From: Archangium violaceum
GTDB lineage: Bacteria > Myxococcota > Myxococcia > Myxococcales > Myxococcaceae
Direction: 5' to 3'
Assembly: GCF_016859125.1 (NCBI RefSeq)
Contig: NZ_CP069338.1
Coordinates: 8,435,501-8,499,500 of the forward strand
DNA length: 64,000 nucleotides
A program made the position numbers and the translations under genes. Within the stretch, counting starts at the first letter, position 1. Every line of letters starts with the position of its first letter. Under the pieces are notes generated by a model. That model ran no database searches. It was not told where the DNA came from and saw only the letters and a list, made by a program, of their open reading frames with translations. Shown piece after piece: positions 17,256 to 52,168 of the stretch.

Positions 17256-17337
17256 GGGCAGGCTGACAGACGAGCGCCTTGATGCCTGATTGCCAGGCCT
17301 GTTACTTGCATGACCTCCTGACCCGAGAATCACCCTT

Positions 17338-17467
17338 GTTCAAGGGCAATCCCGAGCGAAAGCCCGGGTGCGCAAAGCCGTGGGGCCCGGAGTACGGCCG
17401 GCTGTGGCTGCCGTGGGAACTGGCGCTGGTTGGCGCTTGGGGGGGGCTGAGCCCGGGATTGCCCTTG
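17338..17467 (+). ncRNA. Candidate c-di-GMP-I (GEMM) riboswitch with antisense switching strand
   Basis: The leader of the gene at 17520 contains the GEMM-I core: AAGGGCAATCC (17342-17352), a stem CCCGAGC/GCCCGGG closed by a GAAA tetraloop (17358-17361), GCAAAGCC (17372-17379), a GGCC-paired third arm and a 3' GGCTGCCGTGGGAACTGGC (17406-17424). This parallels the Vibrio Vc2 aptamer, including the G equivalent to G20 (17345) and the A equivalent to A47 (17374); a G at the first position suggests c-di-GMP over cGAMP. CGGGATTGCCCTTG at 17454-17467 is exactly complementary to 17341-17354 of the aptamer and so can compete with ligand binding. CCCTTG at 17333-17338 can also pair with 17341-17346. 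Confidence 0.62.
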
Positions 17468-17519
17468 GTCACAGGGGTTTGGGGCCTGTCGCCCGAAGTG
17501 CAACCGGAGGTCAGCCACG

Positions 17520-19205
17520 ATGCTGCGGACACTCACCACCCTCGCGTGTCTGATGCCTGTGATGGCCCTGGGCCAGAATGTGGGGGCGCCCCTGCGGGGC
17601 ACGTCCCTGGTCGTCAACGAAGGGCCGGGAGACCAGACGGATCCCCACGTGAGCGGGTCGCTGGTGGCCTACACCAATCAGCTGAGCCTCAGCAGCAGTG
17701 AGATTCGCTATCACGATCTGGCCTCGGGTAGGGACCAGGCCATCCCCACCGAGGGGGGATACGACGCCATCTCCGACATCAGCGGCGAGGTGGTGGTCTT
17801 CACCCGCTCCACCAGTTCCAGCCGCGTCTTCCGCTTCGATGTGAGCAAGGGCGGCCTCGCGGAGGAGCTCGCTCCCCGTTCCGGCGCGGACCGGCGCGCC
17901 GCCACGGTGGGAGGCCAGACGGTGGTCTGGCAGGAGCTGGGCTACACCGCCGAGTCCGCGCCGCCGGAGATCTTCGCCTACCGCATGGACTCGCTCGCGC
18001 TCACCCGGCTGTCCGAGGACTCGAGCGTGGATCGCGCGCCCGCGGTCAGCGCGGACGGTCAGGCGGTGGTGTGGACGAAGTGCGCCACCAGCATCGATGG
18101 GTGCGACATCTGGGCGGCCCAGGCGGTCGAAGGGGGCTACCGGGTCTCCCAGCTCACCGGGGCGGAGGGCGAGGAGTCCCTGCCCGATACCAACGGCGAG
18201 GTCGTGGTGTACGTGACGCGCAGCACCGTCGACGGCGCGCCGGAGGCGGACATCGCCTGGCAGCCGGTGGGGGGCGGTGAGGTCCATCGGCTCTCGCTCC
18301 CGGGCACGGACACCAACCCCAACATCAGTGGTCCGATCATCGCCTTCGAGCGGTGGGGGGTGTCCGAAGGGACCCCCAACTTCGATCTCATGCTGTACGA
18401 CCTGCGTACGCAGACGTACTACCGGCTCACCGAGACGCCGGGCAGCGAGTCGCTCAGCGACATCAGCGTGGATGCCAATGGCCAGGCGCGGGTGGTGTGG
18501 ACGGAGCGGCAGGACGGCCACCTCAACGTGTACGCCTACATGTTCCGCGTGCCGAGCGACTGCGAGTTGTCGCCCACCGACGCGGATCCCGCCGCCGTGT
18601 GCGCCTCGCCCGGTGTGCGGCCGTTGTTGGGCACCCTGGTGGTGAGCAACGCCAACGGCGAGTCGGAGGTGGTCTCCTCCGAGGTCGAGGGCATCGGCAC
18701 GGGCGTGCTGTGCGTGGACAATGGCTTCGAGGGGACGCGTGCCAGCGCGGGGAGGGTGTGGCTCGGCAGGGGCCTGCTGGTGGGGCCCTCCGAGCTCGGG
18801 CGGGACGTCGCGGGCATGGCGCGGGCGGTGCCGCTCCAGGGCCGACGCATGCTGTCCGCCCGGCTGGACGACAAGCCCGGCAGCGCCTTCCGGGTGCGCC
18901 TCTATGGGACGCTGTCGTGCGAGGACAGCCAGAAGGACGAGTCATTCGAGGGCTCGGAGCTCCGTTATGGCGAGCTGGTGCCCGCCGAGTCCCTGGGGAC
19001 GGGGTCGGACAAGGGCGGTTTCACGCACTACTTCGTGCCGAGCGGGTACGAGGGGGAACAGGCCTCGGCTCCTGGCCTGACGGAGGGCGACGAAGCGTCG
19101 AATCACGCCTCTCCGGGTTGCAGCGCGGGGGGCGGCTCGGCGTCCCTCCTGGGGGTGTGGATGCTCGCCGTGGTGCTGCTCCGAGGCAGGGCCGCTCGGG
19201 CGTGA
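17520..19205 (+). CDS. Exported TolB-like beta-propeller protein with MYXO-CTERM anchor
   Basis: The 561-residue product has a signal peptide (MLRTLTTLACLMPVMALGQ) and repeats of about 50 residues of WD40/TolB type, such as DPHVSGSLVAYTNQ, ISDISGEVVVFTRS, NISGPIIAFERWG and ISVDANGQARVVWTE. It ends with CSAGGGSASLLGVWMLAVVL followed by RGR, a MYXO-CTERM sorting tail (Cys, membrane span, basic end). It is therefore probably displayed on the cell surface. GGAGG lies 9 bp before the ATG. It is the first gene after the riboswitch and leads a group of four exported proteins. Confidence 0.8.
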   Translation: MLRTLTTLACLMPVMALGQNVGAPLRGTSLVVNEGPGDQTDPHVSGSLVAYTNQLSLSSSEIRYHDLASGRDQAIPTEGGYDAISDISGEVVVFTRSTSSSRVFRFDVSKGGLAEELAPRSGADRRAATVGGQTVVWQELGYTAESAPPEIFAYRMDSLALTRLSEDSSVDRAPAVSADGQAVVWTKCATSIDGCDIWAAQAVEGGYRVSQLTGAEGEESLPDTNGEVVVYVTRSTVDGAPEADIAWQPVGGGEVHRLSLPGTDTNPNISGPIIAFERWGVSEGTPNFDLMLYDLRTQTYYRLTETPGSESLSDISVDANGQARVVWTERQDGHLNVYAYMFRVPSDCELSPTDADPAAVCASPGVRPLLGTLVVSNANGESEVVSSEVEGIGTGVLCVDNGFEGTRASAGRVWLGRGLLVGPSELGRDVAGMARAVPLQGRRMLSARLDDKPGSAFRVRLYGTLSCEDSQKDESFEGSELRYGELVPAESLGTGSDKGGFTHYFVPSGYEGEQASAPGLTEGDEASNHASPGCSAGGGSASLLGVWMLAVVLLRGRAARA

Positions 19206-19258: not shown

Positions 19259-21196
19259 ATTACCAATGCTCTGAACCGTTTCCTGCCAGTCCTGCTGCTC
19301 GTCGCTTCTGCGGCCTCGGCGGAGACCCTTGACATCCTGGGGCCGTCCGCGGCCGTCCCACCCGAGGGCTTTTCCATCGCCCTGGTGCGGAGGGACGCCA
19401 CGGGTGCGCCCGTGTCCGCGGCGGGAATCTCCGTGTCGGCGAGCGGGGCGCGGTTGTCGCCAGGGCCCGAGCAGCCTCCCTTGAAGACGTTCCTCGTCAT
19501 CCCCGAGCCGGGAGCGCGGGAGGTGAGGGTGGCCGCCGAGAGCGCCGGGTCGCGTGCCGAGGCCCGGTACGTGTTGGGCCCGCCGGCCACGCAGGTGTCG
19601 CTCACGTTGGATCCGCCCGCGCCCGTGAAGGGCCGGGACAAGGAGGCGCTGCTCACGGTGCGGATGCTCCAGCCGGATGGAACACCGGATGACACCGGGG
19701 CGCCCCCCGTGCTGCGGGCCAATGTGGGCCGGGTGGAGGAGCTCGCGCGCACCGGGCCCGGTACCTGGCAGGCTCGCTACGTGCTACCGGACACGCGCTA
19801 CCCGGAGGTGGCCATCCTGGTGGCCCTCTCGGCGTGGCCCCATCCGCAGTCGATTCACGGGGCCTACGGCAAGGTGCTGGTGCCGCTCGCCACGTCGGTG
19901 GAGCTGCCGGGTCGCACCGAGCCGAACGTGGAGATCTCCGTCACCATCGCCGGGGAGACCTTCGGGCCCACGAAGGCGGCGCCGGACGGGCGCTTCCGGC
20001 TGCCCGTCATCGTTCCGCCGGGCCACAGCATCGGGCAGGCGCGCGCGGTGGACGCGGCGGGCAACGTGCGACGCTCGCGGATGAACCTGGCCTTGCCTCC
20101 CACCGACGGGCTGGCGTGCGTCCTCAACCCCCAGCGTCTCCCGGCGGATGGGGTGTCCCAGGCGCGCCTGCTGTGTGCCTCCAGTGATCCCCAGGGCCGG
20201 CCGGTGAAGGACGCACGGGTGAAGGCCTCGGCACGTCATGGCACCCTGCGCGGCCCGACGCGCGCCGAGGGAGGCCTGCTCGAGTGGATCTACACCGCCC
20301 CGCGCACGCTGCCCGCGGAGCCGGAGCGGCTGGTGGCCACCTGGCCGGAGCGGGGCAGCAGCTCGCGCGAGGAATTGTCGCTGCAACTCGTGCAGGGGCC
20401 GGCGGCGCGTGTCGCCCTGTCCCTGGCCGAGCCGATGGTTCACCTCGGCTCGACGGTGCCCGTCACCGTCACCGCGTGGGACGCCTTCGGGCGGCCGAGG
20501 CCGGGAGCCGTGGTGGTGGCGCGGGCGGACGAGGGCTCGTTCAGCCCGCCACGCGAGGACGCCCGGGGGGTGTTCACCAGCGACTGGACGTTGCCTCCGC
20601 ATGGCCAGGTGGGCGAGGCGGAGGTGAAGGTGCTCGCGTATGGCCCGGTCGGTACGGAGCCGGCGCGCCTGCACGTCTGGGTGGAGGGAGGCGTCCTGTA
20701 CGCGGGCGTGACGGACCTGGCCGGACTTCCGGTACCGGGACAGCCGCTGCGTGCCGGGGGTGAGGAGCGGGTGACGGGGGAGGAGGGCACGGTGGTGCTC
20801 GGCCCCGTGCGTCCGGGCCGCATGGAGGTGGTGCACGGCCAGTGGCCCGGGCTCCGTCAGACGGTGGAGGTGGTGGCCGAGGGAGGGCCCGTGTTCCCCC
20901 TGATGCGGCCCCTGGCTCCGGCCACGGCGGAGCAGCGGGTGCGGCTGGTGCCCGCCGTGCCGGTGAACGTGCGGTTGAGGGTGGAGGGCCCGCGCGTCAC
21001 GTTCTGGATGGAGGACGCTTCGGGCCGGGTGCTGGAGGGTCGCGCGGCCCACGTGTGGCAGTCCGCGGGTGAGCGGAGCCCCGTGGAGGTGAAGGACGGA
21101 CGCGGCAGCTTCCTCGTGCGGCATGGGGGGCCCGTGAGCGTGTCGGTGGGGGACGTGGCCACTGGAGTCACCGCGCTCGCCGAGGTGCTGCCTTGA
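19259..21196 (+). CDS. Exported Ig-like surface protein, probable ATT start codon
   Basis: The frame is blocked by TAA at 19256-19258, so it can only begin at ATT 19259 or CTG 19271. ATT sits 7 bp after a GGAGG (19247-19251) and gives MTNALNRFLPVLLLVASAASA, a good signal peptide; starting at the first GTG (19385) would remove it. The ATG at 19266 is in another frame and stops after two codons. The 645-residue protein is built of Ig-like/invasin-like beta domains (PADGVSQARLLCASSDPQG, HLGSTVPVTVTAWDAFGRP). Function is unknown; adhesion or matrix binding is inferred. Its end overlaps the next gene by 4 bp. Confidence 0.72.
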   Translation: MTNALNRFLPVLLLVASAASAETLDILGPSAAVPPEGFSIALVRRDATGAPVSAAGISVSASGARLSPGPEQPPLKTFLVIPEPGAREVRVAAESAGSRAEARYVLGPPATQVSLTLDPPAPVKGRDKEALLTVRMLQPDGTPDDTGAPPVLRANVGRVEELARTGPGTWQARYVLPDTRYPEVAILVALSAWPHPQSIHGAYGKVLVPLATSVELPGRTEPNVEISVTIAGETFGPTKAAPDGRFRLPVIVPPGHSIGQARAVDAAGNVRRSRMNLALPPTDGLACVLNPQRLPADGVSQARLLCASSDPQGRPVKDARVKASARHGTLRGPTRAEGGLLEWIYTAPRTLPAEPERLVATWPERGSSSREELSLQLVQGPAARVALSLAEPMVHLGSTVPVTVTAWDAFGRPRPGAVVVARADEGSFSPPREDARGVFTSDWTLPPHGQVGEAEVKVLAYGPVGTEPARLHVWVEGGVLYAGVTDLAGLPVPGQPLRAGGEERVTGEEGTVVLGPVRPGRMEVVHGQWPGLRQTVEVVAEGGPVFPLMRPLAPATAEQRVRLVPAVPVNVRLRVEGPRVTFWMEDASGRVLEGRAAHVWQSAGERSPVEVKDGRGSFLVRHGGPVSVSVGDVATGVTALAEVLP

Positions 21197-24100
21197 GGCG
21201 GGTCACCTGGGCATTGTGCCTCGCCCTGCTGCCGGGTGCCGCCGGGGCGCAGCTCGCGAGGGTGGAGCCCCCGGAGCTCGCGGCGGCCATCGCCGGGCGC
21301 GTGTGCAGGGATCTGGACGGGGACGGACGGTGTGCCCCCGAGGAGCCGGGCCTGTCCGACGTCCGTCTGGTGCTGGCCACCGGCCGCGAGGTGCGCACGG
21401 ACGCCTCGGGTCGCTACCACTTCGCCGAGGTGGACGCGCGCAGCCCGGATGTGACGGGCGGGGTGCACCTGCGGCCTGGCCGGCAACGGCTGCGGTTGGA
21501 TCCACGGACGCTGCCGCCCGACAGCGAGGCCAGCCCCGCGGCCGTCACGGTGGAGGTGCCGTGGGCCGCCCTGGTGCTCCAGGACTTCGCGGTGCGCACC
21601 CGGGCCGAGGCCCTGTCTCCCCTGTCGCTCTCGTACGACGCGTCACCGCCCACGGCGGCGGTGGTGCCGGGTGGGGTGGAGTTCCTCGTGGCCGGGCAGG
21701 CCTCTCCGGGCGATGAGGTGACGGTGGGCGTCGGCCCGGCGGAGGTGGACGCGCGCGGCGGCTGGAGTGCGCGTGTCCGGCTCGTTCCCGGGGAGAACGT
21801 GCTGCCTCTCACCGTCCTCGGTTCCGAGGGCTCCCTGCGCCTCTTCCGTCAGCGCATCGACGTGGTGTCGCGACAGGGGAACCTGCTCGTCATCCCGCGT
21901 GAGCCCGAGCCCGAGGGGACACTGCGGCTGCCGGGCCGTGAGGGCGAGCCGCCGGCCAGTGGTCCCTCCTCGCTGCTCGTCGAGTTCCCCGCGGGTACGC
22001 GTGTGCGCTCGCCTCGGGGCGAGGTGACGGTGGGGCCCGAGGGGTCCGCGCTGGTGCCGGTGGTGCTCGCCGTGGGCCGCAACCTGGTGGCGCTGGAGAT
22101 CCAGCCGCCGGGCATGCCGGCCCGGACGGTGTCGGTGCAGCTGGAGGCGGTGCCCCGGTCCTTCGCGGTGGGGTTGTTGGACATGGAGGCCACGTTCTCT
22201 CCCTCCACGAGGGACTTCCGGTTGAGGGGACGGGGGGCGGCCCATGGCGAGGCGCGCCTGGGTTCCTTCTCGCTGACGGGTGAGTTGGATCTCCGGGACA
22301 CGGACGTGGACAACCTGCGCGGGAGCCCGGTGGCGGACTGGTTGCGCCCCCGCATTCCGCGGTTGGGCCGGGTGCCGGATCCGGACCTCGCCATCCCCGA
22401 GTGGGGAGATGCGTCCGTGGGCTTCACGCCCAACCCCGCCGAGGGCCGTCTGCGGCTGGAGGTTCGCCACGACGAGCTCGGCCGGGTGGGCCTGGGGACG
22501 TACCGGGCGTTGCAGGTGGAAGGGGAGGTGGGCCGCTACCACCGGCCGCTGTTCGGCCCCTTCGCGGAGCTGGCGGCGGAGCTGGGCCAACTGCGCGCGG
22601 GCGTGAACGCCTTCGCCGGAGGGCTGGCGGATCCCACGCGCTCGCTCTCGGCCCTGCCGGCGTACGAGGAGCTGCGCGGCACGGGCGGGAGCCTCTACTA
22701 CCTGGGCTCGGTGCCGGTGGCGGAGGGCTCGGAGCTGCTGCGCGTGGAGCTGCGCGACGGCGTCACCGGGTTGCCGCTCGCCGAGCGCCACCTCGTTCGG
22801 GGGCGGGACTATGAAATCGACTACACGGCGGGTCGCGTCTTCCTCGCGCGCCCGCTGTCCTTCCTCTCTGGCGAGTCGTTGCTGCGCACGGATCCGCTGA
22901 CGGCCACGCCCGAGCCCGTCCTCACCGTGCAGTACGCCGTGCTGCAGGCGGCCTCCCCGGTCGACTCCGCTGGAGGCGAGGCGTGGGCGGAGTGGAAGGG
23001 GGGACGGGTGTCCGTGTCCGCCGTGCACGAGCAGCGAGCCGGGGCTCCCTACCAGCTCCTCTCGGGGCACGCGCGCACCACCCTGGGGGGCTACACGCTC
23101 ATGGCGGAGGTGGCCCGGAGCCGGGGCTCGGCGGTGCTGGCGGAGCTGTTCGGCGTCTCGGATGACGGAGGCCTCTCCTTCCTCCGGCCGGACGAGGAGC
23201 GGGACGTGCGGGGCGGAGATGCCCTGGGGTTGCGCCTGCGCGGGCCGGGCCTCTTCGGTCAGGGCTCGGTGGACGCGGCCTTCCGCCGGCGCACGGAGGG
23301 CTTCTCCGATGGGGCGCACGCGGACACCTCCTCCTTCCGCCAGTGGTCCCTGCGTGCCGTGCAGCCGCTGGGGTCCTGGCGCCTCACGCTGCTCGGGGAT
23401 GATCGGCTCTCGACGGATCCGCGGCGGCCCTTCGAGCAGGGGCTGTTGGAAGCGCGCACGCTGGGACTGGGGCTCGGCTACACATGGGAGCGGTGGGGCG
23501 TGAGCGCGGAGCTGCGCGACGCCAGTCTGCGCGCCAGCGAGGTGCCTGGTGAGGGGCCGCTGCTCGAGGGCGGACGCACCTCCGCGGGGCTCCAGGGCCA
23601 CTACGTGGTGAACGACTGGCTGCGTGTGTCGGCCGGCCACCGGCAGGCGCTGGTGCTGCGCGGCGAGGGCCCGGGCCGGGTGGACGACACCTTCTCCTCG
23701 GCGGGCGTGGACGTGACGGTCGACGAGGCCGTGGTGGGCGTGCGGGGCGGCTGGGGTCCCCAGCTGGGACCGCTGGCGTGGGTGCGGGGCACGTGGCAAC
23801 GGGGCCAGGACGTCTACTACGGCGGCTACTCGGTGGATGTGGACGGGCCGGACTTCGGCGCCAGCCGCGCGGTGAGCGGGGCGAGCACGGAACTGGCGGA
23901 CGGGACGAGCCTCTTCGTGGAGGACGTCGCCTCGCACGACACGAACGCCGTGCGCCTGGCGCGGGCGGTGGGCTTCCATCAGACCCTCTTCGGCGCGCTC
24001 GACGTGGGCGTGCGCTACGAGCGGGGCGTGAGGAGCGTGCTCGACGTGCCGGGCTCGCTGCGGCGCGACGTGGCGAGCGTCTCCGGAAACCTCGTCCTGG

Positions 24101-24777
24101 AGCGCCTCCGGGCCGATGGCCGCCTGGAGATGCGCTTCGATCGCGGCACGCCGGAGCGGGGTGTGTCGGAGCCGGTGGATCGCATCCAGGCGATCCTGGT
24201 GCTCGCGGCGGAGGCGGTGCTGCGCGAGGACCTGTCGCTCTCGTTGCGGATGAACTACGGCCGTACCTACGAGCGGGAGAGCAGGGTGGCGGAGGCCCGG
24301 TTGCTCGAGGGGTACACGGCACTCGCGTGGAGGCCAGGTCCCTTCCTCCTGGTGGCCCGCTATGGCATCACCCGCGAGCTGCAGCCCGGCGTACGCTCCG
24401 TCTTCGGGGAGCGGGCCCAGCAGGTCTTTTCACTGCTGCCGGCGGTGCGCCTGGGAGACCGGTTCGCGCTGGCGGCGGGGCTGCACGCGAGCCGGAGCAA
24501 CCAGGATGACGTCGCGATATGGGTCTTCACCGGCTCGTTGCGTCCATCGGTCCGGGTGGTGGGAGGGCTGGAGGTGGCGGTGGAGGGAGCGGCGCGGTCG
24601 GTGGTGCCCGAAGAGGAATCGTTGGGTTCGCTACGTGGCGAGGTGGCGTACCGCGTGGACGAGAAGCTGCGTGTGGCCCTGGGCTATACTCTGCTGGGGT
24701 TCACGGGAACGGGCTTGCCGGAGGAGGCACAGAATGGTTCCGACAGGCTCTATCTTCGGGCGGAACTGGCGTACTAG
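21193..24777 (+). CDS. Large outer-membrane protein: SdrD-B-like domain, Ig-like domains, C-terminal barrel
   Basis: TTG at 21193 overlaps the preceding stop (TTGA). The 1194-residue protein has a signal peptide (MRRVTWALCLALLPGAAGA), an SdrD-B-like calcium-binding module (CRDLDGDGRCAPEEPGLSDV, about 38-60), two Ig-like domains (to about 330), and from about 340 to the end a long series of amphipathic strands that closes with LYLRAELAY, typical of an outer-membrane barrel. It most likely anchors or exports the neighbouring surface proteins, by inference from co-transcription. The usual calcium-site acidic residues are present. Confidence 0.75.
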   Translation: MRRVTWALCLALLPGAAGAQLARVEPPELAAAIAGRVCRDLDGDGRCAPEEPGLSDVRLVLATGREVRTDASGRYHFAEVDARSPDVTGGVHLRPGRQRLRLDPRTLPPDSEASPAAVTVEVPWAALVLQDFAVRTRAEALSPLSLSYDASPPTAAVVPGGVEFLVAGQASPGDEVTVGVGPAEVDARGGWSARVRLVPGENVLPLTVLGSEGSLRLFRQRIDVVSRQGNLLVIPREPEPEGTLRLPGREGEPPASGPSSLLVEFPAGTRVRSPRGEVTVGPEGSALVPVVLAVGRNLVALEIQPPGMPARTVSVQLEAVPRSFAVGLLDMEATFSPSTRDFRLRGRGAAHGEARLGSFSLTGELDLRDTDVDNLRGSPVADWLRPRIPRLGRVPDPDLAIPEWGDASVGFTPNPAEGRLRLEVRHDELGRVGLGTYRALQVEGEVGRYHRPLFGPFAELAAELGQLRAGVNAFAGGLADPTRSLSALPAYEELRGTGGSLYYLGSVPVAEGSELLRVELRDGVTGLPLAERHLVRGRDYEIDYTAGRVFLARPLSFLSGESLLRTDPLTATPEPVLTVQYAVLQAASPVDSAGGEAWAEWKGGRVSVSAVHEQRAGAPYQLLSGHARTTLGGYTLMAEVARSRGSAVLAELFGVSDDGGLSFLRPDEERDVRGGDALGLRLRGPGLFGQGSVDAAFRRRTEGFSDGAHADTSSFRQWSLRAVQPLGSWRLTLLGDDRLSTDPRRPFEQGLLEARTLGLGLGYTWERWGVSAELRDASLRASEVPGEGPLLEGGRTSAGLQGHYVVNDWLRVSAGHRQALVLRGEGPGRVDDTFSSAGVDVTVDEAVVGVRGGWGPQLGPLAWVRGTWQRGQDVYYGGYSVDVDGPDFGASRAVSGASTELADGTSLFVEDVASHDTNAVRLARAVGFHQTLFGALDVGVRYERGVRSVLDVPGSLRRDVASVSGNLVLERLRADGRLEMRFDRGTPERGVSEPVDRIQAILVLAAEAVLREDLSLSLRMNYGRTYERESRVAEARLLEGYTALAWRPGPFLLVARYGITRELQPGVRSVFGERAQQVFSLLPAVRLGDRFALAAGLHASRSNQDDVAIWVFTGSLRPSVRVVGGLEVAVEGAARSVVPEEESLGSLRGEVAYRVDEKLRVALGYTLLGFTGTGLPEEAQNGSDRLYLRAELAY

Positions 24778-24790
24778 GTGGAGCGCGCGC

Positions 24791-27700
24791 ATGCGGCTCC
24801 TCTCCCTGGGTGCGGTGGGGGGCCTGGTGATGTTCGCCGCCGCCCACGCGCATGCCGACTGGCGCACGGGGATGTCCGTGCCGGAGCGGCCCAACGACGT
24901 CCTGGAGGTGTGGGGCCCCGAGAAGGTCTCGTTGGGGTTCTCGGAGGCGGGCAGGTCCGGGGCCTATCTGTTCGTGGACGGGGGCGTTCCCTGGAGGATC
25001 TCCGCGCCCACGGCCTCCGCTGAGTCGGCCGGCACCTACTACGTTCCGTCCGATGACTGCTTCCTGTCGGTCAGGAGGGATGGCCTTGGGACGCGCAATC
25101 TCCTGGGGGCGGATGGGGGCACGTGTGGAAAAGACTCCCTGGATAACAGGTCCATCACCCTTCCCGAGTCGGATGTCCTTCGGGTGAAGCACGCGGCCCA
25201 GGGCGGAGCCGCCGCGCTGGTGAGCAGCTTCGGCTCCTTCGGGGTCTATCTGTCGGAAACCAGCATCTACGACTCCCTCCCCTTCACCCCGGCCTACAGC
25301 CCGCCGGATTCGCTCAGCAGGGCCCTGGGGGTGGTACGGACGGACGGCGGGCTCCATGCGCTCGTGGGTACGCCGAGCTCCAACTCCCTAGTCTACTGGA
25401 TCACCAGCAGCGGGTTGAAGGAGAAGCGGTCTCAGTCTCCGTCGATGGGCGCCGTGATGGCGATTGACATGTTCCCCGCGGGCAGCCCGGTGGCTCCCCA
25501 TGCCGTGGTGGGCACTCAGCAGGGCTTCCTTCAAGGGACGTTGCAGGATGCTGGGACCCCGCTCAGAGCGGTCCAGGTGCTCGACGGCTGGAGCGTGAAG
25601 AGCCTGTCCATGAACGTGATGGCCGGGGGTGATGCCGGGACCGGGTTTGGCATGGCCGTCGTGTCGCGGGCGGATGGCGGTACCGGGGTGATGGGCTCCG
25701 TGCCCATGCTCGCGGACACGGAGGCGGGGCGCATCTGGCGCTTCAGGCCGCTTCCGGCGGAGGTCGCATCGGCTCCGTTGAAGGAGGTCGCCTGCACGGG
25801 CGCGAGCTACTGCGTCTTCACCGTGGACCGGGCTGGTGGGAACAACATCTTCGTCTATACCAACGATGCGGGGCCGAGCATCTCCGCGAGCGCCCTGTCG
25901 GCGACCGTGGTGGATGACCCGATGGGCGCCTCGGTGACGTTCGACGAGAGCGTGCCTGGCCAGCTCACCTTCGCGGCGAATGATCCGGAGGGAGATCCGG
26001 TGCTGGTGACGGCCTCGCATCAGCTCGTGGGCTCGACTCCATGGACGGTGACTCCGGTCAGTGGTGCGCCGGGAGATCCCGTCGTATTTCAGGTCACCCC
26101 CGGCGCCATCTGCCAGCGCGAGGCGCACGTGGGCACCTTCCTGGTCCGGGCCGCGGACGGCCTGCCCGCGCACGACGCCTCCAAGACCTTCCAGGTGTAC
26201 GTGAAGCACACGCGGGCTCCGGGGTTTCCCTCGGTGGTGTTCCCCGATGGCAGAGAGGTCCCGAGCGGTCCGGTCGCGATCGAGCTGGCCGCGGGCGGAG
26301 CCCCCTTGCTTCTGCGGGCGCTCGGTGGCGACACGACGGCCGCGGGATGTCGGATCCAGAAGCGCTGGGAGCCCCGGTTCTCGGGCACGGGGGTCCCGTC
26401 GCTGGAGCAGGACGGGGGGACCGCCGTGATCACACCTCCGCGGGTCTTCTGTCAGGCGGGGGGCGGGGACTTCGGCTTCCGGCTCCAGGTGGAGGATGAG
26501 GGAGGGCTCTCCACCTTCAGGGATTACAAGGTGCACGTGGCGCCCTGGGGCCAGCCGAACGTGGTGTTCAGCGCGGACTCGGGAGTGGAGTACCTGAACG
26601 CCGGGCAGTCGTTGGCGCTCACGCCCGACAACCCGCGCCCCCACGACTGTGTGGACAGCCCCTCCTTTCCGGGAGTGGTGCGCCTGTGGCACGTGACGTC
26701 GTCCGACGGAGGCGTGCCCGGTGGTGGCGTCACGTTCCGGGATGGGAGCGGCGGGCCGCCGATCCAGGGCTTCCCGGCGCCAGCATCGGCGCTCGTGGTG
26801 GAGGCACCGCACTGCGTCGATACGACCCAACTGATGATCCGCACCGAGCACCACGTGGGAGCCGCCGATGGTCTCGCCGGTCCGTCCTCGGTGCGTCAGG
26901 TGATGATCCAGACCGACAAGGAGCCGTTCGACGCGGGCGTGCTCGTGCTCGAAGAGGACCCGAAGCCCTCGGGCGAACTGGTCGTGAGCGTGATGTCGAA
27001 CCTCAACTGCGCGGCGGAGCGTGGCCTGCGTGCCGACCTCCAGCTCGAGCCCATGGACGGAGGGGGGCCGACGCAGGTGGCACAGGTGGATATTCCAGGC
27101 GAGTGGCGGTTCCCTCTGGGCCTGGGCTGCCAGGGCGGGGACTTCCAGTTGAAGGCCTCGATGACGGAGGAGACGGGTCTGCGTTCCCTCGTGATGACGA
27201 AGGACGTGGCTGTACCCTCGTTCGATGCGGGGCTGGAGCCGCTACCACCAGAGGATGCAGTGCTGGTGGCCCGCTGCAACGAGGGCGTTCGCGCCACGCT
27301 GACCCAGACCTTCCCTCCGGAAGCCTGTCAGACGCCGGCCGTCACCTGGACACAGGTGGATGGCCCAGAGCTCGAGCAGGGCTCCCTGTCCGGTCACACG
27401 GTGTCGTTGGCCACGCGGGACACCGGGCTGGATTCGCTGGTGGGCAGGTCCGTGGTGATGCAGGTGACGGCGGACGCGGGCCCGGAGAAATCGACCGGGA
27501 TTACGCACACGCTGCCCATCACCGTGGAGCCCTTCGTGAAGCTGCGCCGCCGTACCGAGGTTCCGGCGGCGTCGGAGACGGGGCTCGTCGGCGTCTCCGT
27601 GGAGATGCTCAACACCACCGCGTGTGGCGTGACGGACGTGCGCTACGTGGAGCGCATGGAGGGCATGACGTACGTGGAGGGCAGCGCGAAGTTCGACGGC

Positions 27701-27982
27701 CAACCCGTGATGGCCACCTGGAACGAGGGGGCGCTCACCGTGACGGGGCTGTCCCTGGGGAGTGAGGTCCCTGGGACGTTGACCTACGTGGCGCGTCCCC
27801 ACCTGGTGGGCGAGCGGCGCATGGAGGGCGAGGCCCGGCTGCGCGACGTGCCCATTTCGATCGTCACGACTCCCGGGCCCCAGGTGCCGGACTCCGGTTG
27901 TGGCTGCACGAGCTCGGGTCCGGGCCCGGTGCTGTTCGCGCTCGGGGCGCTGGTGGCGGCCGTGCGCCGCCGGCGTCGGTGA
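24791..27982 (+). CDS. Large exported protein with Ig/PKD-like repeats and MYXO-CTERM anchor
   Basis: ATG at 24791 follows GGTGGAG by 8 bp; the frame is open further upstream but is there a shadow of the barrel gene. The 1063-residue protein has a signal peptide (MRLLSLGAVGGLVMFAAAHA), a first half without clear repeats, several cadherin/PKD-like beta domains (LTFAANDPEGDPVLVTA), and a textbook MYXO-CTERM tail: SGCGCTSSGPGP, a hydrophobic span and RRRRR. It ends the riboswitch-led operon 18 bp before a convergent gene. A role at the cell surface or in the matrix is inferred. Confidence 0.78.
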   Translation: MRLLSLGAVGGLVMFAAAHAHADWRTGMSVPERPNDVLEVWGPEKVSLGFSEAGRSGAYLFVDGGVPWRISAPTASAESAGTYYVPSDDCFLSVRRDGLGTRNLLGADGGTCGKDSLDNRSITLPESDVLRVKHAAQGGAAALVSSFGSFGVYLSETSIYDSLPFTPAYSPPDSLSRALGVVRTDGGLHALVGTPSSNSLVYWITSSGLKEKRSQSPSMGAVMAIDMFPAGSPVAPHAVVGTQQGFLQGTLQDAGTPLRAVQVLDGWSVKSLSMNVMAGGDAGTGFGMAVVSRADGGTGVMGSVPMLADTEAGRIWRFRPLPAEVASAPLKEVACTGASYCVFTVDRAGGNNIFVYTNDAGPSISASALSATVVDDPMGASVTFDESVPGQLTFAANDPEGDPVLVTASHQLVGSTPWTVTPVSGAPGDPVVFQVTPGAICQREAHVGTFLVRAADGLPAHDASKTFQVYVKHTRAPGFPSVVFPDGREVPSGPVAIELAAGGAPLLLRALGGDTTAAGCRIQKRWEPRFSGTGVPSLEQDGGTAVITPPRVFCQAGGGDFGFRLQVEDEGGLSTFRDYKVHVAPWGQPNVVFSADSGVEYLNAGQSLALTPDNPRPHDCVDSPSFPGVVRLWHVTSSDGGVPGGGVTFRDGSGGPPIQGFPAPASALVVEAPHCVDTTQLMIRTEHHVGAADGLAGPSSVRQVMIQTDKEPFDAGVLVLEEDPKPSGELVVSVMSNLNCAAERGLRADLQLEPMDGGGPTQVAQVDIPGEWRFPLGLGCQGGDFQLKASMTEETGLRSLVMTKDVAVPSFDAGLEPLPPEDAVLVARCNEGVRATLTQTFPPEACQTPAVTWTQVDGPELEQGSLSGHTVSLATRDTGLDSLVGRSVVMQVTADAGPEKSTGITHTLPITVEPFVKLRRRTEVPAASETGLVGVSVEMLNTTACGVTDVRYVERMEGMTYVEGSAKFDGQPVMATWNEGALTVTGLSLGSEVPGTLTYVARPHLVGERRMEGEARLRDVPISIVTTPGPQVPDSGCGCTSSGPGPVLFALGALVAAVRRRRR

Positions 27983-28000: not shown

Positions 28001-30025
28001 CTACAGGCCGAAGCTGATGCGGTTGCGGCTGCTCGGCTCCTCGCGCCGCTCCTCCAGCACGCCAATCAGCTCCAGGCCCCGCAGCGTGGCGAGCACGCCG
28101 CGCTCGGGGAGCTCCGTGAGGGTGAGCAGATCCTCCACCGTCTTGCTGCCGTCCGCGTAGGCCAGCAGCAGGGCCTGCGGTCCCCTCAGCTTCAGCTCGT
28201 GCAGGGCATAGGGTGGGGCCGCGGTGGGGAAGAGCCGGCGCGAGCGCGGCATCCGCTGGCGCAGCGACTCCAGGGGCTCGGAGCGGAGGATGCCCTCGAG
28301 GATGAGATCCCCGGGAAACACCGACAGCTTCACCAGTCCCGCGCGAGGTGGGCGCGTGGGGCTGAAGCCATAGGCGCCCTCGGTCCACGAGAAGGTGGAC
28401 CAGAGGATCTCCTTCACCTGCTCCTCGATGAGCTGTGGGTGCCGCCGCGCGTCCAGCAGGCCCAGGCGCATCATCGCCTCGCTGGTGCGGATGTTCTGCT
28501 CGCGAGCGAGTGAGCCCACCTCTTGCAGCTTCGCTTCCGGCAGCACGCCGCGGCGCACGCAGAAGCGGGCGAAGCGCTCATGGGCGAGATTGGAGGCGGC
28601 GTACACCGGGCGGCCCGCCTCGAAGTAGACGACCTTCAAGACGGAGCCCTGCCGGAGCTTGAGCTCTCCGCTGTGGCGCGCCTCGTAGTAGGCGTTGAGC
28701 AGCCGGGGAACGCTGGTGTTCTTCAGGTCTCCGGAGAGTGACCACTCGGGCGGAGGACGGCGGCCGGGAGCCGAGGGGTCCGTCTTGGTCCACACCTTCT
28801 CGCGCTCACCGAAGGGCAGGGCGAGTCCGGGCTCGGGTTCCAGCGTCTCGGACGTGTCCGCGGACGAGGCGGTCGGCGCTGGCACTTCATCGGCCGGACC
28901 GAGTGCCGCCAATGCCGCGTGCTCCTCGGAGTACGCCGCGGGTGCCGGTTGCTCCTCGGATGGACCGAGTGCCGCCAATGCCACGTGCTCCTCGGAGTAG
29001 GCCGTGGGTGCCGGTTGCTCCTCGGATGGGCCGAGTGCCTCCAGCGCCGAGTGCTCCTCGGAAGAGGCGGCCTCCGCCGGCTGCTCCTCGACGGAGCCGG
29101 GTGCTTCCAGCGCCGCGTGCTCCTCGGAGTAGGCCGCGGGTGCCGGCTGCTCCTCGACGGAGCCGAGTGCTTCCAGCGCCGCGTGCTCCTCGGAAGAGGC
29201 GGCCTCCGCCTGCTGCTCCTCGGCCGACTCGAACGCAACCATCGTCTCGAGCTCCTCGAGATCCTCCGGCTTGAGGGTGATGGGCGTCTTGCTGTGGTCG
29301 GAGGGCTCCTGCTCGGGCGGAACGGTGTCTGGCGCGAGGGGGGCGGGCTCTTCCTCGCCCGGGGACCCGGCTGGAGGCGCCTCGGCCTGGTAGAGGTAGT
29401 TCGGGACGTATGCCTCCGCGTCCGTGGCGGCCGCTGGGGCCTCCTGGCCCAGGGGATCCTGAACCTCCTCGACGACCACGAGCCCCTGCACCAAGGGGGC
29501 AGGCCCCTCTGGCTGCGGACCGAAGACGGGCTCGTCCTCGTGCGAGGTGAAGCCGGGCTCGTCTTCCTGGGAGGTGAAGACGGGCTCGTCTTCCATGTCC
29601 AGGAGCGAGGCGTCCTCGAAGACCACCACCTCCTCCTCGTCGACATCAGGGGAGGACAGCGGGCGGGTCAGGCCGCACAGCTGCTCGACGGATTCCAGGA
29701 GCTGGAGCAGCTCGAAGGGTTTCTCGAAGAAGGCGCGCGCGCCATGGACCTCGGTGGCCTCGCGGGCGAAGCGGTCTCCCTTGAAGACACCGCTGACGGC
29801 CACGGAGGGGATCGCATGATCCCGGAGCGCGGAGAGCACGGCGCTGCCCCGCATGTCGGGCAGCAACAGGTCCACCACCGCGGCGTGAAAGGCCGCCGGG
29901 CGCAGGAGTGCCAGCGCGGCCTCGCCGGTGTGGACAGCAGTGGCCTCATGACCGCGGCTCTCGGCTGCGGCGACCATGAGGGAGGCCAGTTCAGGGTGGT
30001 CCTCGACGATGAGCAGTCGCGCCAT
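28001..30025 (-). CDS. Response regulator with acidic repeat linker and C-terminal DUF4388 (PATAN) domain
   Basis: ATG at 30025 gives MARLLIVEDHPEL, the start of a REC domain (about 1-120, phospho-Asp in VVDLLLPDM, Lys in FEKPFE). A Glu/Ala/Pro-rich linker of about 250 residues contains five tandem 22-residue repeats. The C-terminal part (about 425-674) starts SLSGDLKNTSVPRLLNAYYE, typical of DUF4388/PATAN domains that myxobacteria and cyanobacteria use as signalling outputs for motility or polarity. The kinase partner is not encoded next to it. It is divergent from the VOC gene with 28 bp between starts. Confidence 0.85.
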   Translation of the reverse strand: MARLLIVEDHPELASLMVAAAESRGHEATAVHTGEAALALLRPAAFHAAVVDLLLPDMRGSAVLSALRDHAIPSVAVSGVFKGDRFAREATEVHGARAFFEKPFELLQLLESVEQLCGLTRPLSSPDVDEEEVVVFEDASLLDMEDEPVFTSQEDEPGFTSHEDEPVFGPQPEGPAPLVQGLVVVEEVQDPLGQEAPAAATDAEAYVPNYLYQAEAPPAGSPGEEEPAPLAPDTVPPEQEPSDHSKTPITLKPEDLEELETMVAFESAEEQQAEAASSEEHAALEALGSVEEQPAPAAYSEEHAALEAPGSVEEQPAEAASSEEHSALEALGPSEEQPAPTAYSEEHVALAALGPSEEQPAPAAYSEEHAALAALGPADEVPAPTASSADTSETLEPEPGLALPFGEREKVWTKTDPSAPGRRPPPEWSLSGDLKNTSVPRLLNAYYEARHSGELKLRQGSVLKVVYFEAGRPVYAASNLAHERFARFCVRRGVLPEAKLQEVGSLAREQNIRTSEAMMRLGLLDARRHPQLIEEQVKEILWSTFSWTEGAYGFSPTRPPRAGLVKLSVFPGDLILEGILRSEPLESLRQRMPRSRRLFPTAAPPYALHELKLRGPQALLLAYADGSKTVEDLLTLTELPERGVLATLRGLELIGVLEERREEPSSRNRISFGL
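28892..29221 (-). repeat. Five tandem 66-bp in-frame repeats in the REC-DUF4388 gene
   Basis: Five consecutive 66-bp units encode 22-residue repeats of the pattern EEQPAPAAYSEEHAALEALG plus two residues; a sixth partial unit (DEVPAPTASS) follows. Units keep the frame and differ at a few codons, so copy number can change by slippage without breaking the gene. Confidence 0.85.
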
Positions 30026-30053
30026 GGGGGCCGGACACCATAGCATTCCGTTC

Positions 30054-30440
30054 ATGGACGTTCAGGGCTTCCACCATTTAGCCATCCAGGTTCGGGACGT
30101 AGAGAAGGTCACCGCTTTCTATAGAGAGGTGCTGGGCTTATCCGAGCTCAAAAGACACCACAGGCCGGATGGCTCGCTACGCAGCGTATGGGTCGGCGTC
30201 CCGGGCGGGGGTTTCCTGGCGCTCGAGGAGGTGTCGGGCGAGCCCGAGCCCGGCCCCTTCCGGAACGAGCGGCCGGGCCTCTTCCTGCTCGCCTTCCGCA
30301 TCGCCAGGGCGGAGCGGGCCCGGGTGGTGGAGGAGCTCGCGCGGGCGGGGCTCGCGCTGGAGCACGAGACGAAGTGGACGGTGTACGTCCGGGACCCAGA
30401 GGGGAACCGGGTGGCGCTCAGTCACCACCCGGAGGACTGA
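30054..30440 (+). CDS. VOC/glyoxalase-fold protein
   Basis: The 128-residue protein has the glyoxalase/bleomycin-resistance fold: HHLAIQVRDVEKVTAFYREVLGL at the start and VYVRDPEGNRVALSHHP at the end, with the usual metal-site His near residue 7. It is short, as for a single VOC module pair that works as a dimer. The substrate is unknown; lactoylglutathione lyase-like activity is only one option. ATG 30054 is chosen over an upstream start that would overlap the divergent regulator gene. Confidence 0.82.
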   Translation: MDVQGFHHLAIQVRDVEKVTAFYREVLGLSELKRHHRPDGSLRSVWVGVPGGGFLALEEVSGEPEPGPFRNERPGLFLLAFRIARAERARVVEELARAGLALEHETKWTVYVRDPEGNRVALSHHPED

Positions 30441-30505
30441 GCATCCCGGGGCCGCAGGCACGCCTTGCGGAAGGCGGCGCGGGGCGGCTACAAGCCGGAG
30501 GCGTC

Positions 30506-31876
30506 ATGCGCCTGGGCGAACTGCTCCTTCAGGAAAAGCTCATTACCCCCGAGGCGCTGGAGGAGGCGCTCGAGTCGCAGGTCGTCCATGGTGGGCGGCT
30601 CGGGACGAACCTCGTCGAGCTGGGGCTGCTGTCCGAGCAGGACCTGGCGCGGGTGCTGGGCAAGCAGTACAACGTGGCGTCCGCCTCGGGTGAGATGACG
30701 CCGGACCCACGCGCGCTGGAGTTGGTGGACCTCGACCATGCGGACGAGAAGGACTACCTGCCCATGCGCGTGGACGCCACGCGCATGAGCGTGGCGGTCA
30801 TCAACCCCCGCGACATCGAGACGCTGGACGCGTTGGCCTTCAGGACGGGCAAGCGTGTGGTGCCGGTGGTCATCCCCGAGTTCCGGATGAACCAGCTCCT
30901 GCGGCGTTACTGCAAGGCGTTCCGGGCGATGCGGGCCATCGACATGAACGCCGTGCGGCCCACGCGCGCCGAGCAGGAGCGGCTGAAGGCGGCCTCGCAA
31001 TCCGAGGATCTGATCAGCGAGGAGGAGTTCCAGTCGCTCTACGCCCAGGCGCTCAAGGGTGGGGGCAAGGCCCTGGGCGAGGAGCCCGTGTTGGACCTCG
31101 TGGAGATGGTGGCGGAGGAGGAGGAGCCGCCCGCGCCCATCGTCGAGGGGTACGCGCCCGAGGTTCCAGTGGAGCCTGTGGCTCCGCCCTCCGAGGCCGC
31201 CGAGGAGCAGAACCTGCCCGAGGCTCAGCTCGTGGAGGAGGAACCCGTCATCGCGCCTCCGCCGGAGCCCATCGTGCCTCCGGTCGTGGTTCCGCGCATC
31301 GCGCCCGTTGCTCCACCTCCCGTGGCGCCCGTGCGACCCCGCCCTCAGCCCCGCCCACAGGTGCCGGTGGCGGCGGAGTCGCGGCCCACACCGCTCACGT
31401 TCGCCGAGGCCCAGGCCGAGCTGTCGCGCAGCTCGGATCGCGAGCAGGTGGCCACCACGGTGCTGCGCTTCGCGCTGGGCAAGTGGAAGCGCAGCCTGTT
31501 GTTGAGCGTGCAGGGAAACATCGTGACGGGCTGGCGCGGCATGGGGCAGGGGGTGCGCGAGGCCGCGGTGAAGCGCATCGGCATCGGCCTGGCGGCGCCG
31601 AGCACCTTCCGGTTGGTACGGGACACGCGCGCGCACTACGTGGGGCCGGTGCGCAAGGACGCGGCGTCGGGCTTCTTCTACAAGCTGCTGGGCGGGGACT
31701 ATCCGACGACGGCCGTCATCCTCCCTCTGCTGGTGCGCGGGAAGCTGGTGCACCTGCTGTACGTGGACAATGGCCCCGGCCAGCTCACTCCGCCCGACGT
31801 GGGCGAGCTGCTCATCCTCTCGCAGGGCGTGGGCCGCTCGTACGAGGCGATGATCCGGCGCCGCAAGAGCGTGTGA
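30506..31876 (+). CDS. MshEN (GspE/PilB N-terminal) domain protein
   Basis: The 456-residue protein begins with an MshEN domain (MRLGELLLQEKLITPEALEE and DYLPMRVDATRMSVAVINPR, about 1-160), the module that precedes type II/IV secretion ATPases and binds c-di-GMP in MshE. There is no Walker ATPase; instead a Pro/Glu-rich linker (220-310) leads to a GAF-like C-terminal domain (about 315-456). It is thus a stand-alone signalling protein, possibly a c-di-GMP effector. GGAGG lies 5 bp before the ATG. It is convergent with the barrel gene at 31899. Confidence 0.82.
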   Translation: MRLGELLLQEKLITPEALEEALESQVVHGGRLGTNLVELGLLSEQDLARVLGKQYNVASASGEMTPDPRALELVDLDHADEKDYLPMRVDATRMSVAVINPRDIETLDALAFRTGKRVVPVVIPEFRMNQLLRRYCKAFRAMRAIDMNAVRPTRAEQERLKAASQSEDLISEEEFQSLYAQALKGGGKALGEEPVLDLVEMVAEEEEPPAPIVEGYAPEVPVEPVAPPSEAAEEQNLPEAQLVEEEPVIAPPPEPIVPPVVVPRIAPVAPPPVAPVRPRPQPRPQVPVAAESRPTPLTFAEAQAELSRSSDREQVATTVLRFALGKWKRSLLLSVQGNIVTGWRGMGQGVREAAVKRIGIGLAAPSTFRLVRDTRAHYVGPVRKDAASGFFYKLLGGDYPTTAVILPLLVRGKLVHLLYVDNGPGQLTPPDVGELLILSQGVGRSYEAMIRRRKSV

Positions 31877-51749: not shown

Positions 51750-52168
51750 TTTGAATGTTGTAAATCTGGGGACTTCTCCACTGTCGAGGAGCAAGTAGAG
51801 GGAGAGGAGGAGAGCCCGTCGAGGGCATCTAGTATGTTGCAGATCCTCCAACCCTTACTTGTCGAGGAGGTTCTCCTCTCTCTTCTCCGCGGAGTCCTTC
51901 CAAGGCTCATAGTATATTGGAATTCCTCTGCCTTCTTCTCAACGAGAGAACCCTCGGCTTTCTCTCGGGTTCTCTTCTAGTCCTATAATATGATGTAATT
52001 ACATGATATAATAGAAGATAGATGAGGAGAGGGAGGGAACAGTAGGTCCCTCCCTCGAAGAGAAAGAGTCAAAGGATTTACAGGATACTATCTGTCCTCG
52101 ACTGAGCTTCAGCGGAATGGAGGCAGCTCTCGTCTCCTGAGTGTGTCCCGGAGAATTGCAGCATATTA
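51750..52168. repeat. Iteron-like array in an AT-rich intergenic region
   Basis: Six related 18-21-bp sites share the core TAGTATNTTGNAAATCCTC: plus strand at 51751-51771, 51830-51849, 51910-51928 and 51984-52002; minus strand at 52071-52090 and 52148-52168. The fourth overlaps a near-perfect 22-bp palindrome (core ATGTAATTACAT, 51993-52004), which adds a minus-strand copy. The stretch is much richer in A+T than its surroundings. The whole gap 51724-52363 has no gene. Confidence 0.65.

Follow-up and report, generated by a model that had tools for sequence, protein, structure and literature searches.

A putative class I c-di-GMP riboswitch with an antisense switching strand ahead of a conserved exported-protein operon in Archangium violaceum

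In the 64-kb stretch of Archangium violaceum DNA analysed here (the window, whose numbering is used throughout), the leader of an operon of predicted exported proteins likely functions as a class I c-di-GMP (GEMM-I) riboswitch, which would act by strand exchange and lower operon expression at high c-di-GMP. Sequence comparison revealed a GEMM-I aptamer with its contact bases, a complement of the pocket strand that recurs in relatives, and a constant place before an orthologous operon. The riboswitch class is known; what is new is a further member whose switching strand is unusual compared with the comparators checked. The features of the leader and of the operon are collected in Table 1.

Table 1. 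Features of the leader and the downstream operon (window coordinates).
Feature	Position	Strand	Basis or remark
Sigma-54-type promoter candidate GGCCTGTTACTTGC, GG-N10-GC	17296..17309	+	start predicted near 17321
Flank ACCCTTG, can pair with CAGGGGT (17472-17478)	17332..17338	+	MFE, ungapped inverted repeat, six-leader consensus fold
GEMM-I (c-di-GMP-I) aptamer	17335..17416	+	cmscan, own model, covariation, contact bases
Aptamer 5' core strand CAAGGGCAATCCCG (ligand-pocket G and 5' side of GAAA-capped stem); putative switch-helix partner	17341..17354	+	
GGGCAA motif	17344-17349	+	read from sequence
GAAA-capped stem	~17351-17368	+	sequence; GAAA near 17358-17361
GCAAAGCC (GCAAAG core)	17372-17379	+	sequence
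GCCGTGGG	17410-17417	+	sequence
Platform hairpin, 17420-17442 with 17492-17514	17420..17514	+	predicted; platform MFE -55.5 kcal/mol
Putative antisense switching strand CGGGATTGCCCTTG	17454..17467	+	exact complement of 17341-17354
Small hairpin CCCTTG-GTCA-CAGGGG	17462..17477	+	platform fold; incompatible with switch helix
Shine-Dalgarno GGAGG	17506..17510	+	sequence
Gene 1, exported TolB-like beta-propeller protein, 561 aa	17520..19205	+	NCBIfam TIGR04275, TIGR02800 sub-cut-off repeats
Gene 2, invasin D3 / Big_1 Ig-like domain protein, start codon uncertain	19385..21196	+	Pfam PF09134, PF02369
Gene 3, 1194-aa exported protein, possible outer-membrane barrel C-terminus	21193..24777	+	conserved synteny
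ORF 4, MYXO-CTERM sorting signal at end	24362..27982	+	TIGR03901 24.7 bits, cut-off 20

At curated thresholds, an Rfam search of the entire window returned tRNA only. In an E-value-thresholded cmscan of the leader, the c-di-GMP-I clan was the sole significant match, with RF03167 ranking highest (31.2 bits, E 1.1e-5, at 17335-17416), and a whole-genome search found RF01051 at this leader with 32.8 bits and nowhere else in the genome. Both values lie under the gathering cut-offs (35 bits for RF01051 and 59 bits for RF03167). Among the orthologous leaders of the same genus, RF01051 scored above its cut-off in three (G001, 35.2; G003, 36.6; G004, 37.2 bits) and just under it in a fourth (G002, 34.7 bits). 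The covariance-model match anticipated in the original prediction was therefore found, below threshold in the window and above it in these three orthologues, and it was reinforced by our own covariance model, built from 27 myxobacterial aptamers, in which the window, itself a model member, reached 92 bits (E 2.8e-23) against no second aptamer copy above 22 bits anywhere in its genome. Matches of the leader to NLPC-P60 RNA (E 2.1) and to WT1-AS_7 were discarded as chance.

The 27 myxobacterial aptamers adopted the GEMM shape in an unaided consensus fold, with two-sided changes in 8 of the 16 pairs, a number reached by none of 500 shuffles, and with 96.8% of cells paired as compared with 26-46% in slid controls. 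The GGGCAA motif, the GAAA-capped stem, GCAAAGCC and GCCGTGGG, on which the original prediction was built, were all present as described; the GAAA of the first hairpin is a GNRA tetraloop, as in GEMM-I, and an A-C mismatch is found in the aptamer stem of the window. The equivalents of the ligand-contact bases G20, A47 and C92, mapped through the Vc2 sequence, are G at 17346, A at 17375 and C at 17411, and all three were unchanged in the 27 aptamers. The correspondence of these bases to the c-di-GMP contacts has been published (PMC4744006, PMC11218506). Position 17345, which had been proposed for mutation, is adjacent to the G20 equivalent at 17346 and does not coincide with it. By every computable sequence feature but the formal Rfam cut-off in one genome, the segment 17335-17416 is a class I c-di-GMP aptamer. 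A local hairpin CCCTT/AAGGG (17333-17337/17342-17346) overlaps the 5' strand of the aptamer and competes with the aptamer fold in isolation.

A GEMM-like aptamer for another ligand, either cGAMP or the ligand of the c-di-GMP-I-GGC variant family (RF03167), was also considered. RF03167 was the top clan match in the window and matched in 38 of 96 family genomes, all under its cut-off. However, the 59-bit cut-off was reached in none of the 96 genomes (31.2 bits in the window), and the window contains the canonical GCAAAGCC core where the RF03167 consensus reads GCGAAgCc. RNAs of the cGAMP-type GEMM-Ib have an A at the position equivalent to G20, whereas this position is a G in 27 of 27 sequences, so that c-di-GMP is favoured over cGAMP. 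Another ligand is therefore very improbable, and we infer from the sequence that the leader RNA binds, and almost certainly senses, c-di-GMP.

About 100 bases downstream of the aptamer 5' core strand (17341-17354, CAAGGGCAATCCCG) lies its exact reverse complement at 17454-17467. This 14-nt perfect complement, the central element of the original prediction, is real, and as RNA it is extended by a U17340-G17468 wobble to a helix of 15 bp. Five short-range inverted repeats were found in the 64-kb window, and the match is situated inside the longest and strongest of them, a 30-nt repeat (17328-17357/17451-17480) with 77% complementarity. When the downstream segment was shuffled 400 times at the dinucleotide level, no shuffle attained the energy of the switch helix (z about -7 for the ungapped helix). 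Ungapped helices and local scores were used in these comparisons in place of gapped duplex energies, which were too noisy because large internal loops hide the signal. Pairing of the flank ACCCTTG with CAGGGGT lengthens the switch helix past a short internal loop, and the same long helix was obtained in the consensus fold of six genus-level leaders. The strand-exchange riboswitch group defined in PMC10907184 is characterized by a platform strand able to take the place of an aptamer strand, the two helices excluding each other, and the predicted pairing would place the leader in this group. Elsewhere in the window, a further exact 14-nt inverted repeat was found at 63037-63050/63174-63187 (123 nt apart), and an AT-rich imperfect palindrome CTATAATATGATGTAATTACATGATATAATAG at 51983-52014, unusual in this GC-rich genome, is a possible operator.

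In orthologous leaders of the same genus, the complementarity comprises 9 bp and 7 bp flanking one mismatch (G002 and G004), 6 bp and 5 bp flanking one mismatch (G001), or two blocks flanking three mismatches (G003). A second clade (g16) combines the aptamer strand TCAGGGCAC with the platform GTGCCCTGA, and in a swap test its own-clade duplexes gave -20.1 kcal/mol as compared with -12.4 kcal/mol against CAAGGGCAAT-type platforms. In the swap test, own and cross pairings gave -15.1 and -12.8 kcal/mol, respectively. The reverse swap with the CAAGGG group showed no discrimination (-13.5 vs -13.1 kcal/mol) because this group includes many Myxococcus-type leaders with 5-10 bp only. The combined p values were 1.2e-5 for Archangium, 3.0e-5 for g16 and 0.005 for the others, and are indicative since related sequences are not independent. 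The expectation that homologous leaders keep the pairing held for the genus Archangium and for the second clade; it was weak in the Myxococcus-type leaders, whose complementarity of 5-10 bp was not significant as a group (p 0.20). The antisense feature was not enriched among 110 GEMM-like loci from many phyla (mean z -0.19), which ruled it out as a general GEMM-I trait, though single cases exist. Isolated downstream complements of the aptamer 5' strand, 8-12 bp in length, were seen in Acidimicrobiia, Omnitrophota and Clostridia (L098, L071 and L059). In family f5 (L018, L027, L029) the aptamer precedes a different gene, and L018 and L029 have a strong terminator whose loop contains TGCCCTGA, complementary to the aptamer strand TCAGGGCA.

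The platform hairpin is predicted to enclose the antisense strand, to embed the Shine-Dalgarno region and to cross the switch helix; therefore the two exclude each other. The sequence GAGGTC ahead of CCACGATG is kept in all seven leaders of the genus-level comparison. When the switch helix was enforced, the unpaired probability of the Shine-Dalgarno sequence increased in five of five Archangium leaders (from 0.25 to 0.51 in the window). In the same five leaders the start codon was predicted to be more paired with the helix, which is evidence against an OFF reading. No intrinsic terminator (GC-rich hairpin and U-tract) was found downstream of the window aptamer. The hairpin 17462-17477 occupies the position of the relatives' intrinsic terminator, but has a poor U-tract, and a classical U-tract was not seen in the Archangium leaders (window and orthologues), so that the output step in these leaders is predicted from energies. 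In other genera, hairpins followed by U-rich sequence are present (e.g., L042, L038, L008, L018), and the intrinsic terminators of L008, L022, L042 and L044 contain CCTTG or TGCCCTGA, complementary to the aptamer strand, within the 5' arm or loop, that of L018 within the loop. By contrast, the Shine-Dalgarno region is the pairing partner of the antisense strand in L032 and L035. Retaining the aptamer stem was calculated to cost about 0.4-5 kcal/mol as long as the antisense strand has not been made, 13-19 kcal/mol once it has and about 6 kcal/mol in the full leader, with similar curves for G002 and G004. These folding energies suggest that the decision is taken during transcription. The simple two-state switch initially envisaged is thus too simple, while its core of strand exchange was supported.

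The sequence of events may be as follows. The aptamer is transcribed first and could adopt its fold and bind c-di-GMP while the antisense strand is still to be made. In the absence of ligand, the antisense strand would invade the aptamer 5' strand and form the 15-bp helix, which would block the platform hairpin and leave the ribosome-binding region freer (ON). With c-di-GMP bound, the 5' strand would be locked in the aptamer, the antisense strand would remain in the platform, and the platform hairpin would then cover the ribosome-binding region (OFF). The location of the antisense strand in the relatives, in the terminator 5' arm or loop or on the Shine-Dalgarno region, would give OFF polarity either way. 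We infer that operon expression is probably turned down at high c-di-GMP, a polarity that the original prediction did not specify.

The same aptamer and switch helix could also make an ON switch, in which expression is blocked by the long antisense helix, or by Rho loaded behind it, and restored by c-di-GMP. GEMM-I switches of both polarities have been published (PMC9262584, PMC4744006), Vc1 of Vibrio cholerae and the pilM cGAMP switch being ON, and the poor U-tract in Archangium, which weakens a terminator reading there, as well as the more paired start codon in the antisense state would agree with it. This polarity is nevertheless unlikely: in relatives with clear intrinsic terminators, pairing of the antisense strand with the aptamer is predicted to prevent termination, in L032 and L035 the antisense strand is the very strand that covers the Shine-Dalgarno region, and Shine-Dalgarno accessibility rose with the helix in every Archangium leader. 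A further reading would make the entire leader a fixed long hairpin, with the region up to 17318 as anti-Shine-Dalgarno strand (TGACCTCC with GGAGGTCA at 17507-17514). This pairing is present in the minimum-energy fold of 17300-17520; its strand (17311-17318), however, is not retained by the orthologues and is situated upstream of the predicted transcription start. It was rejected, and the fixed hairpin is extremely improbable.

Comparison of the preferred OFF switch with known systems revealed shared and distinct elements. The aptamer architecture, the GAAA-capped stem, the invariant GCAAAG core and G20/A47/C92 are shared with RF01051 and with Vc2 and Vc1, and, as with Vc1 and gbpA, the window aptamer precedes an exported surface-protein gene. 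In contrast to RF01051 and Vc1, the window scores below threshold and its platform pairs with the aptamer 5' core strand; moreover, it is predicted to be OFF, whereas Vc1 was reported to be positive-acting (PMC4744006). Cd1 of Clostridioides difficile is OFF, as is predicted for the leader, and decides during transcription; its logic is also alike in that an antiterminator-type fold competes with both the aptamer and the terminator or platform hairpin, which can exist side by side (PMC9262584). However, it is the 3' strand of the aptamer that enters the Cd1 antiterminator (strand A with T and H), whereas the leader would use the pocket-bearing 5' strand (P). The pilM cGAMP riboswitch of Geobacter (GEMM-Ib, ON) has the aptamer fold in common with the leader and differs in position 20, in polarity and in a terminator built with the 3' aptamer strand, so that Cd1 and pilM both exchange the 3' strand (PMC9262584). 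It is quite possible, though we propose it tentatively, that a myxobacterial GEMM-I platform type exists in which the partner is the pocket-bearing 5' strand, a single conserved antisense element can act on either a terminator or a ribosome-binding site, and c-di-GMP shuts a surface-protein operon across Myxococcaceae including Myxococcus xanthus.

The GG-N10-GC arrangement with TTGCA upstream of the leader presumably represents a sigma-54-type promoter, and no sigma-70 site was found at the promoter region of the window. GGCC and TTGCA were unchanged in seven of seven genus-level leaders, including the one that has no aptamer. Myxococcus-type leaders carry TTGACC-N17-TACACT-like sites instead, as read by eye. 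The promoter class upstream of the conserved riboswitch thus apparently changed between Archangium (sigma-54-type) and Myxococcus-type leaders (sigma-70-like).

Behind the aptamer, nearly all Myxococcaceae loci have a gene of one and the same beta-propeller family, and the order of upstream gene, aptamer, propeller gene, Ig-domain protein gene and gene for a 1.2-kaa protein is conserved. In L033, from another family, a propeller gene with 27% identity also lies behind the aptamer. Of the 96 family genomes, 49 carried both the aptamer and the gene and 36 carried neither, while the gene stood alone in 11 and the aptamer in none (Fisher 5e-17, uncorrected for descent); the aptamer is hence present before the orthologous propeller gene in 49 of 60 gene-bearing genomes, a count from which a marginal 28-bit match in G100 was left out. 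The aptamer also occurs in M. xanthus AM003 and in several other named strains of Myxococcus and Pyxidicoccus. It is present once in nearly all relatives, whereas four to five GEMM-like copies were noted in G014 (L016, L043, L044). The gene is kept without a usable aptamer in G005, g11, g15 and G012. In G005 (L012/L218) the aptamer alone is deleted, with promoter, platform and gene kept. The g11 genomes (L220, L221, L222, L223) have eroded GEMM-like remnants (GGGACAATCC ... GCACGAGGCC) ahead of the propeller gene, and in three of these four genomes the gene is interrupted by an in-frame stop; the remnant is either a relic or a variant aptamer. In the g15 and g8 leaders no aptamer was seen. So the switch is old in the family, single-copy and dispensable in some lineages.

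Such losses raise the question of whether the riboswitch of this lineage is in decay, with the perfect inverted repeat as a by-product that has no regulatory role, e.g., a templated copy of the aptamer strand. The clean loss in G005 of the same genus, the erosion and in-frame stops in g11 and the restriction of the perfect 14-nt match to the window's genome are in line with decay. Nevertheless, the window and five close relatives have an intact aptamer sequence with all contact bases, the orthologues retain complementarity despite differing platform strands, and a separate clade has complementarity with a different sequence, which makes decay improbable. For the strand-exchange switch favoured here, the clades that differ in output, by terminator, by ribosome-binding site or with the aptamer deleted, offer a natural series in which the evolution of switching strands can be followed.

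The operon downstream is conserved and consists of predicted exported proteins. The link to a surface-protein operon made in the original prediction proved stronger than anticipated there. The C-terminus of the beta-propeller protein is Cys/Gly-rich and hydrophobic, contains Arg and resembles MYXO-CTERM, but the curated MYXO-CTERM cut-off was passed by the last protein of the cluster only. The gene for the Ig-like protein is conserved behind the propeller gene, and the 1194-aa protein had no family match. The true start of ORF 4 is probably near 24780, as the listed frame overlaps the preceding gene. c-di-GMP is essential for the development of Myxococcus xanthus, where it acts via protein receptors; in the literature on c-di-GMP in M. 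xanthus, as far as checked, riboswitches are mentioned in general terms only. A single-copy riboswitch before one conserved operon of predicted surface or exported proteins would represent a direct and testable c-di-GMP output in social bacteria. Past the operon, a response regulator with DUF4388 is encoded on the opposite strand (28001-30055), and a protein with the c-di-GMP-binding MshEN domain is encoded 2 kb beyond the operon end (30188-31873).
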